Origin: Eubacteriales bacterium
GTDB taxonomy: Bacteria; Bacillota; Clostridia; Tissierellales; GPF-1
DNA: 64,000 nucleotides
Assembly: GCA_030625815.1 (NCBI GenBank)
Contig: DAOUQF010000015.1
Span: 1 to 64,000, forward strand
Direction: 5' to 3'
Below the pieces are notes generated by a model. That model ran no database searches. It was not told where the DNA came from and was given only the letters and a program-made list of their open reading frames with translations. Below, piece after piece: positions 51,095 through 53,617 of this stretch. Made by a program: the position numbers and the translations under genes. Numbering within the stretch: position 1 is the first letter of the stretch; every line of letters begins with the position of its first letter.

Positions 51095-51367
51095 TCACCT
51101 ACCGTATACTTTGACTTCATCCACTATCGCAACAATCGCATAATCCACCGGTGAGTTCTCATGGTTCGCTACCAATCGAGCCGCACCTCCTCGACAAGCC
51201 AACACAACTTCTCCATTGCCCGCCCCAAGGCTGTCGATCGCGACAATCGTCTCACCCTTTGGATTTCCTTCCGGCGTAAGCGGCGTCAGAATGAGCAGTT
51301 TTTCTCCCACCAAACGATCATCTTTTGTTGTTGCAACAACATTGCCAATCACTTTTGCTAGAATCAT
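51095..51367 (-). CDS. pduN: BMC vertex protein (PduN/EutN family)
   Basis: 90 residues from ATG 51367, which overlaps the flavoprotein stop (ATGA). Begins MILAKVIGNVVATTKDDRLV and contains DSLGAGNGEVVLACRGGAAR, the EutN/CcmL signature. Pentamers close the vertices of the shell. Confidence 0.93.
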   Translation of the reverse strand: MILAKVIGNVVATTKDDRLVGEKLLILTPLTPEGNPKGETIVAIDSLGAGNGEVVLACRGGAARLVANHENSPVDYAIVAIVDEVKVYGR

Positions 51368-52152
51368 TTCATCCCTCCGTCCACCCAAATCCATTGGATT
51401 CGGTGTTTTTTAAGTTCCTCATCCGCCAGGGCGGTGAGGATCGTTCCCCGTGGAATCTGAATTTGCTCCACTCCGGATAAATAAGGAATCACATCTCCCC
51501 GGGTAATCACACGCTTGTCAATCCGCGCGATTCGGCATAATTCCGGCAAAGTTTTCACACCATCCGGCTGCGCCGATACATACGCTTGTTCCGGATTAGC
51601 CGCCTTCGCGAAAATAAGATCACGATACAGTTCATCGCTCTTACACCAACGAACCCCGAAGGATTCCAACGTATTGATTACACGATGGCTCATTTCCTTC
51701 ATAGCCATAGGCGATTTTTCCCGCAAAGAAAAATCACATGCATCCTTTGCTGCCCAGACTTCCTTGCCTTGCGACAGGGCCGAACCAATCAAATAGGCCG
51801 CCGGAGTGTCCCAAATCATTTTTGCGATCTTGCTCGCAGTCGTGATGGTCATTACCGGAACCAGAATTCGATTGTGCTCCATCGCCAAGAGCTTGGCTGA
51901 TCCAAAATTGCTATCCAAAGCTTCTGCGCTCATCGGCAGAAAATCCAGTGTTCCAATTTGCCGCGCAGCTTCTGTCACCACGGTTTCTGTCATCCAGCCA
52001 CCGCGCTTCAAATTTTCCGCCACACGAATGCCAGCCGAACGTCCCATGGTACCACCTGTATAAACCAAAAGGACTTTCTTATCCGACACGTCTTTCTGAT
52101 CGATGCGCACCAGCACTTCCTCTACGATGCGATCAATCAACATTTCCGTCAT
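51364..52152 (-). CDS. BMC-associated flavoprotein of unknown function
   Basis: 262 residues from ATG 52152 (GAGGAGG upstream; frame opens at 52179). The N-terminus MTEMLIDRIVEEVLVRIDQK is an amphipathic helix like those of the compartment cargo proteins. The body has a flavodoxin-like fold of the flavoprotein (PF02441) type: LLVYTGGTMGRSAG at the first strand, then SALSQGKEVWAAKDA. It is not the adenosyltransferase, dehydratase or any named Pdu enzyme of Salmonella. It overlaps eutJ and pduN by 4 bp each. A flavin-dependent reduction inside the compartment, for instance of cobalamin, is possible. Confidence 0.75.
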   Translation of the reverse strand: MTEMLIDRIVEEVLVRIDQKDVSDKKVLLVYTGGTMGRSAGIRVAENLKRGGWMTETVVTEAARQIGTLDFLPMSAEALDSNFGSAKLLAMEHNRILVPVMTITTASKIAKMIWDTPAAYLIGSALSQGKEVWAAKDACDFSLREKSPMAMKEMSHRVINTLESFGVRWCKSDELYRDLIFAKAANPEQAYVSAQPDGVKTLPELCRIARIDKRVITRGDVIPYLSGVEQIQIPRGTILTALADEELKKHRIQWIWVDGGMK

Positions 52153-52991
52153 GGCGCCACCTCCTCGTCCATCCCCCAAGCGATCCCAATGGGTGTCACA
52201 AGCAGGGGATAATTCGGTTTTACCACTGGAATTCCCAATATCTTTTCAAAATCTTTTTCAAATTCTTCAAAAGTGGCAGCTCCACCAACCACATAGACCT
52301 CCGATACCCCGTGTCCATCGATGGCTCGTTTTACAATGGTCGCCATCTTCTCAACAACGGGTCGAACCAGCGGATACAACTCAGTCTCCTGTTCGCCGGA
52401 GCGCTTTCGCACTTCCGCCTCTTCAAAAGAGATTCCGTAATTTCCAGCAATCACCAGACTCATATGAGTGCCGCCAGTGGGTTCATCTTCCACTGCTACA
52501 ACTTTCCCATCATGAAGAATGCTGATTCCCGTCGTTCCGCCGCCCACATCAACGACCGCGCCTTCGGTAATTCCCAAGACCACGGCTGCCGCTGTCGGTT
52601 CATCCAATACCCGAATCACCTCAAATCCCGCCGATTCTACCACATTGGTGATCGCCCGGGTATCTCCCGGGGCTATTCCAGGCGGAATCGCAGTTGCCGC
52701 TTCCATCAGTTGAATACCCAGCTGATGCTCCACCTCTGCCTTTAATCGTTTCACAATGCGTACCGCGCCAATATAGTCGACGACAATTCCATCCTTCACA
52801 ACCGAAGCAGCTTCCGCCGCTCCAGCAATGGGATTATTGTTTTCATCTACCACGGTAATCACAATATTTGCGGTTCCCAAGTCGACTCCAACTTTGATTT
52901 TTTTTGGCGCTTCTTTTGCCTCTCCTGATTGAATTAACTCATGAAAAGAGGCAAGATATTCATTGATCCGTGTTAAGTCCATCGGTTTCAT
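52149..52991 (-). CDS. eutJ: EutJ-like actin/Hsp70-fold protein
   Basis: 280 residues. VGVDLGTANIVITVVDENN (phosphate 1), VVDVGGGTTGISI (phosphate 2) and VYVVGGAATFEEF (adenosine loop) are those of the EutJ/Hsp70 ATPase fold, without the Hsp70 substrate domain. In ethanolamine loci it is thought to act as a chaperone. Salmonella pdu lacks it, but Clostridia use it with various compartments. It overlaps pduL and the flavoprotein gene by 4 bp each. Confidence 0.88.
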   Translation of the reverse strand: MKPMDLTRINEYLASFHELIQSGEAKEAPKKIKVGVDLGTANIVITVVDENNNPIAGAAEAASVVKDGIVVDYIGAVRIVKRLKAEVEHQLGIQLMEAATAIPPGIAPGDTRAITNVVESAGFEVIRVLDEPTAAAVVLGITEGAVVDVGGGTTGISILHDGKVVAVEDEPTGGTHMSLVIAGNYGISFEEAEVRKRSGEQETELYPLVRPVVEKMATIVKRAIDGHGVSEVYVVGGAATFEEFEKDFEKILGIPVVKPNYPLLVTPIGIAWGMDEEVAP

Positions 52992-53617
52992 CCTCTTTTT
53001 ATAATCTTCACATACGATCCAGTCGTCAGTGAGAATCCATTGGCTTCATCAACGTCCACATGCATTTCCATAGCAAAATCCGGCGATACGCGAAGAAGCA
53101 CGTGATCCAGTCGGCCGCCGCGATCCCCCGGAACAACCACAGAGACAATCTCGCGATCGATAAATCCGTGACGATCCGCGAATTCCTTCGGCATATGAAT
53201 ATGTCTGAGTGCCGCGATGGCGCCTTGTGGAATCTGAACCCTACCGACAGGACCCACCAAGGTCAATCCCGGCGATGCATCTAAAATTCCAGATTCCCGC
53301 ACGGGCGGTTTCACGCCAATGCGAAATCCATCAGTCACCGAGAGTTCCAATTGTGTCGCGCTTCTAAGGGGTCCTAGAATCCGAACCTTGTCGAATCGTC
53401 CTTTGGGTCCCTCTACCGCGATACATTCTTTGGCCGCATATTGCCCCGGTTGCTTTAAATCTTTCAGTTTTGTTAATGTCGCACCACGTCCAAAAAGCTG
53501 AAAAAAGTCCGCTTCACTGAGATGGATATGGTGGTTGGAAACTCCAACCTCCACATATCCCAGTTCATTCATGACTCGATCCACGCATTCTTTGACGAAA
53601 GCTTCTTCTCTCGTCAT
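52988..53617 (-). CDS. pduL: PduL phosphotransacylase
   Basis: 209 residues, normal size. The N-terminal helix EAFVKECVDRVMNELGY is the likely encapsulation peptide. VSNHHIHLS, RHIHMP and EMHVDVDE carry the zinc ligands of the two half-barrels. It converts acyl-CoA and phosphate to acyl-phosphate and recycles CoA in the compartment. AAAGTAGGG before ATG. Confidence 0.93.
   Translation of the reverse strand: MTREEAFVKECVDRVMNELGYVEVGVSNHHIHLSEADFFQLFGRGATLTKLKDLKQPGQYAAKECIAVEGPKGRFDKVRILGPLRSATQLELSVTDGFRIGVKPPVRESGILDASPGLTLVGPVGRVQIPQGAIAALRHIHMPKEFADRHGFIDREIVSVVVPGDRGGRLDHVLLRVSPDFAMEMHVDVDEANGFSLTTGSYVKIIKRG

Follow-up and report, generated by a model that had tools for sequence, protein, structure and literature searches.

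Gene order at the locus

The window, which is the whole 64,000-nucleotide stretch of DNA that was analysed, contains an operon in the order PduB-C-D-E-G-H-K-J-L, EutJ, the gene under study and PduN-O-P-S-T, together with a BMC-T gene. The gene under study is an open reading frame at 51364-52152 on the minus strand, with an ATG at 52152, encoding a PduM-like flavoprotein of 262 aa (P0001). The stop of EutJ and the start of P0001 overlap in a 4-bp ATGA at 52149-52152, and the stop of P0001 and the start of PduN overlap in another at 51364-51367, bearing out a preliminary description of this DNA that had placed a reading frame between eutJ and pduN with 4-bp overlaps. The adjacency to PduO given in the same description does not hold, since PduN lies between the two genes. 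Neighbours were identified by curated models as EutJ, PduL, an EutN/CcmL-type vertex protein, PduO, a PduP-type aldehyde dehydrogenase and diol dehydratase subunits. The features of the locus are as follows.

51364..52152, minus strand: PduM-like flavoprotein gene (P0001), 262 aa, ATGA overlap at each end
52093..52152, minus strand: predicted N-terminal amphipathic helix, residues 1-20 (MTEMLIDRIVEEVLVRIDQK), of core-targeting type by leave-one-out and family profiles
51613..52080, minus strand: HFCD-type (PF02441) flavoprotein domain, residues ~25-180, assigned from PDB profile matches, Pfam and motif counts
51379..51531, minus strand: C-terminal PduM/EutQ-type module, residues ~208-258, predicted E-H-E-H-E, assigned by hhalign and a module HMM
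51095..51367, minus strand: PduN/EutN vertex (BMC-P) gene, directly downstream, a conserved neighbour
52149..52991, minus strand: EutJ gene, directly upstream, the upstream neighbour in 33 of 45 homologue loci
52988..53617, minus strand: PduL gene; in enterics PduM directly follows PduL

A contig scan with P0001 as the single query returned one relative, from a Clostridiales MAG with a near-identical operon and 93% protein identity. Scans of viral contigs gave no match.

The N-terminal helix and the central domain

Profile comparisons support the assignment of residues 1-20 of P0001 as a predicted amphipathic helix of the core-targeting type. When a leave-one-out profile was made from the first ~20 residues of the homologues and searched against the 278 open reading frames of the window, P0001 ranked third (E 0.0048) after PduD (0.0024) and PduE (0.0036) and before PduB (0.0058), with the next reading frame at E 1.3. 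In shuffle tests of the P0001 N-terminus, the likeness to PduB was reached in 0/5000 shuffles, that to PduD in 13/5000, and those to PduE, PduL and PduP in about 5% each. The likeness to PduB, PduD, PduE, PduL and PduP put forward in the preliminary description is upheld by the profile rank for the first three, and for PduL and PduP it is weak because shuffles match it at that rate. When the family N-terminal profile was run against 45 E. coli proteins of the eut and pdu regions, PduB, PduM, PduD, PduE and EutC came out on top, none being individually significant. Compared directly, residues 1-20 of P0001 and of E. coli PduM are 45% identical (E 0.002; reached in 0/5000 shuffles). EpiD has no such N-terminal helix and its domain begins at chain residue ~5, indicating that the helix of P0001 is an extension.

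The central domain, residues ~25-180, is by comparison of the family profile probably a member of the HFCD flavoprotein superfamily, and it is not flavodoxin-like as first described. A Pfam scan extended to E 10 listed only PF02441 Flavoprotein, which is sub-threshold (18.2 bits against a threshold of 22.7), and the B12-trafficking family MMACHC (E 0.018; 15 bits against 27), which is absent from the family tally; no flavodoxin family was matched. PF02441 is matched by 31 of 35 homologues at E <= 0.01. The family profile A1 found the EpiD-like structures 3qjg (4.8e-9), 3mcu (3.9e-8) and 1g63 (7.7e-7) in the PDB, and also matched structures of dipicolinate synthase B, Hal3/PPC decarboxylase and UbiX; a PDB sequence search with P0001 alone gave no match. 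The TGG loop is kept in P0001 at residues 32-34, and the PASANT-like motif reads TITTASK (residues 102-108), with Thr104 in place of the motif Asn that is present in 30 of the 35 homologues. Both the TGG loop and the xNT motif are conserved in most of the 35. The HFCD domain appears to be retained in P0001, possibly in degenerate form. An AlphaFold prediction of the whole of P0001 with two sequences reached a mean pLDDT of 43.5, the C-terminus being its best part, and no other fold claim is drawn from it.

HFCD proteins such as EpiD are trimers of FMN-binding subunits, and the HFCD decarboxylases use an active-site His. The matched HFCD flavoproteins (EpiD, Hal3/PPC decarboxylase, dipicolinate synthase B and UbiX) resemble P0001 in the central domain by profile and share the TGG loop and PASANT-like motif with most of its relatives, whereas those matched lack the N-terminal helix and C-terminal module, the motif Asn is missing from P0001, and its family shows no conserved His column, the most His-rich one reaching 6/35. 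The absence of such a column, together with the reduction of the domain in members from eut loci, makes it highly improbable that P0001 is an HFCD-type enzyme, whether decarboxylase or prenyltransferase-like, acting on some lumenal substrate, despite the profile-level homology to EpiD, PPC decarboxylase and UbiX that would favour an enzymatic role.

The C-terminal module and its relation to PduM and EutQ

Residues ~208-258 form a module of ~45 residues, overlooked in the preliminary description, that profile alignment shows to be homologous both to EutQ residues ~1-49 and to the C-terminal end of PduM from enterics. Alignment of profile A1 with the PduM alignment by hhalign gave E 6.5e-7 over 44 C-terminal columns, and alignment with EutQ gave E 3e-10 over EutQ residues 1-49, improving to 9.5e-14 with the C-terminal part alone. 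An HMM built solely from flavoprotein C-termini and run against the same 45 E. coli proteins, with E-values scaled to a 4300-protein proteome, recovered PduM (1.5e-6), EutQ (1.3e-5) and, weakly, EutT (0.065), with no match in the other proteins of that set. The module of P0001 is the only one among the 278 reading frames of the window. A direct profile comparison of PduM with EutQ was weak (E 0.006), so that these two are linked through the flavoproteins, which serve as intermediates, and through the module HMM.

Modelled alone, the module reached a pLDDT of 80.7 with one of five models confident. The model had no Foldseek match below E 0.03, and in VIA-align it scored a Z of at most 6.4, mostly to the Cas1 N-terminal domain and below the level at which that tool is meaningful. 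Weak matches to E3_binding (PF02817; E 0.004-0.04) were rejected as motif resemblance only.

P0001 scores far below the cut-offs of the curated PduM models TIGR04493 and NF011957 (scores of 16.3 bits against 50 and 23.1 against 179) and has no match to PF15953 in the Pfam scan. PduM was found above the curated cut-off in none of 199 Bacillota genomes. Thirteen sub-threshold PduM matches were obtained in Bacillota, among them C-termini of these flavoproteins: four fell in the same reading frames as flavoproteins already found, and further ones turned out to belong to this family. Compared with PduM of Salmonella, E. coli and Klebsiella (TIGR04493/PF15953), P0001 has in common the slot before PduN, an N-terminal helix of core-targeting type and the homologous C-terminal ~45 residues, and the two differ in what lies between: PduM has 163 aa with a middle of ~80 residues without detectable HFCD relation, giving no significant alignment with the flavoprotein domain, whereas P0001 has 262 aa with a full-size HFCD-type domain. 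The enteric order is PduL-PduM-PduN, which a Kosakonia plasmid also shows within a glycyl-radical locus. The P0001 gene, like PduM, directly precedes PduN, and EutJ intervenes between it and PduL. Occupation of the PduM slot and likeness to PduM at both ends argue against the earlier placement of the protein outside the classical Pdu set.

In EutQ, an Eut linker, it is the N-terminal domain (residues 1-99) that carries the homologous segment, in residues 1-49. Each of the two also has a helical stretch with a presumed contact to the core. They differ in arrangement, the module of EutQ being N-terminal and followed by the cargo-binding H3/H4 and a cupin acetate kinase domain, and that of P0001 being C-terminal; no cupin was found in P0001 by the Pfam scan. 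The best-scoring NCBIfam model for P0001 was TIGR02536 'eut_hyp', an unnamed protein of Firmicutes eut operons, whose model spans the second half of the HFCD domain and the module, as found in P0001. This model is matched by 33 of 35 homologues; the score of P0001 (43.9 bits against a cut-off of 152.6) places it outside the equivalog.

The module was detected in 68 of 80 BMC-P-positive genomes, as compared with 2 of 59 BMC-P-negative genomes, each of the latter with one match in a ~155-aa protein (152-160 aa). Within 15 kb of a BMC-P gene lay 101 of 111 matches, two of the remaining ten shared a contig with BMC-H, PduL, PduS and PduT (L170), and 77 of 93 BMC-P loci held at least one. Microcompartment loci are thus strongly enriched in the module, which nevertheless occurs elsewhere too. 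EutT and some PduL proteins likewise carry the module, which is fused to the start of the PduL phosphotransacylase in L147, L151 and L152 and to its end in L170. Its presence in BMC-P-negative genomes, on EutT and on PduL indicates that the module need not bind shell in every context.

Two kinds of small module protein were seen. In the genomes without BMC-P (L177:8274-8744 and L178:3491-3949) the module is at the N-terminus of the ~155-aa proteins, the second half of which is ACT-like by eye, and the L177 gene adjoins an ileS-like gene. In L154, L155, L157, L158, L150 and L153, proteins of about 94-206 aa carry the module near the start and are often encoded directly before a BMC-H gene; those scanned from this group gave no Pfam family above the cut-off.

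The conserved slot and the proposed linker function

A single-sequence search found a homologue in 15 of 391 genomes of a class sample and 28 of 398 of a phylum sample, counted raw at one genome per species and without correction for phylogeny. Among 45 homologue loci, which include the window locus and its 93% relative, PduN/EutN is directly downstream in 44, the 45th being at a contig end. An example is a 281-aa member located between EutJ and PduN in L070 (genome G090). More divergent unfused members directly precede the vertex gene in 13 of 16 cases; in the divergent loci L147, L151 and L152 PduS is next instead. Consistent with the earlier proposal of a microcompartment protein, all full-length homologues examined are in BMC loci and the helix is of the predicted core-targeting type.

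The homologues occur in pdu, eut and glycyl-radical loci, with PduC in 28 of the 45, EutB in 4, a glycyl-radical enzyme in one (L095) and no signature enzyme seen in 12, the windows being about +/-8 kb so that the enzymes of these 12 may lie farther off. The preliminary description had taken a role in cobalamin or flavin redox chemistry as a fair hypothesis, by which P0001 could be a flavin reductase of the lumen that acts on cob(II)alamin and feeds PduO. A B12-dependent enzyme is indeed present in most sampled loci. The distribution of the family over pdu, eut and glycyl-radical loci nevertheless indicates that such a role is not general, and it is weakened by the L095 locus, by the loci without a B12 enzyme within about 8 kb and by short forms with half a domain. 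In addition, no corrin reductase family match was found for P0001, and PduS is described as the Pdu corrin reductase (PMC2982820). Cobalamin reduction by P0001 is accordingly regarded as very unlikely.

PduS and PduT are downstream in most homologue loci, and P0001 could be an FMN-bearing lumenal electron carrier acting with them, the helix and module serving only to localise it. Proteins of PF02441 were observed in BMC loci by Axen et al., who proposed that one of them, the flavoprotein of the GRM3 loci, might act as an electron shuttle (PMC4207490). Such a function fits the FMN binding of HFCD relatives, the matches of most homologues to PF02441 and their conserved TGG loop and xNT motif. 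It is less easily reconciled with the Thr of P0001 at the motif Asn and its sub-threshold PF02441 score, with the short forms in the same slot that lack the first half of the domain, and with L072, L076 and L108, which have no PduS within the fetched stretch. Electron transfer as the function of P0001 is considered unlikely, though it deserves more weight than either enzymatic alternative.

The short forms in question are from eut loci (L158, 231 aa; L160, 245 aa; L162, 221 aa). The first part of the HFCD domain is missing from each, and the second half and the module remain; the N-terminal helix region is detected in L158, weak in L160 and not significant in L162, and all three have a degenerate flavin motif. 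Since this slot retains the module even where the flavin site is decaying, what the family has in common is more likely a structural role than a flavin-dependent one. The comparison also hints, short of proof, that PduM arose from the flavoprotein by still further reduction.

Enlarged relatives were observed as well. These are fusions of 480-575 aa with the N-terminal helix, a flavoprotein-like region and another domain, encoded downstream of tandem BMC-P genes; the partner, where scanned (L154, L155 and L166), is a DeoC/LacD aldolase domain (PF01791).

L154:8335-9969, L155:8475-10034 and L156:5756-7393: fusion proteins, 480-575 aa
L157:7957-9684, L161:8472-10112 and L166:8006-9448: fusion proteins, 480-575 aa

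GFP is directed to the core by residues 1-23 of PduM, and core and shell become partly separated when PduM is lost (PMC12108088, PMC9132943). Experiments on EutQ showed shell association for its H1/H2 segment (residues 9-41) and association with cargo peptides for H3/H4 (PMC12487888), in a paper that does not mention PduM. With a core-type helix and an EutQ-H1/H2-type module at opposite ends of P0001, a linker role is the best-supported reading, and P0001 is probably the Bacillota counterpart of PduM, a two-ended linker between core and shell in assembly of the Pdu microcompartment. The N-terminal helix would bind the enzyme core in the manner of PduM residues 1-23, and the C-terminal module would dock on the shell like the homologous EutQ segment. 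Judged from HFCD relatives, the domain between the ends would be an oligomeric body that may still bind FMN.

A broader proposal is offered tentatively, at somewhat less than even confidence, in which a single shell-docking module is common to PduM, EutQ and the BMC flavoproteins. In Pdu, Eut and glycyl-radical compartments alike, the flavoproteins would then be the ancestral or least reduced form of the linker encoded before the vertex gene, with PduM and the short eut forms as descendants without the flavin domain, and flavin binding could couple redox state to assembly.

One paper states that PduM has no known homologue beyond Pdu compartments (PMC12108088), and another that the pdu cluster of Acetobacterium woodii apparently lacks pduM (PMC7593272). 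A gene in the slot of P0001 has already been called pduM in a table for C. perfringens (PMC11992839) and in L. reuteri (PMC9320016). A search of the open-access literature, with subscription papers outside its range, found no paper joining PduM, the BMC flavoprotein and EutQ.

PduM is needed for normal Pdu compartments and is little understood. If the flavoprotein is its counterpart, the compartments of Bacillota would have PduM function after all. One short module would then explain how the linkers of both compartments, PduM in Pdu and EutQ in Eut, make contact with the shell, and there would be a lead to the function of the PF02441 proteins, whose presence in BMC loci has long been on record (PMC4207490).
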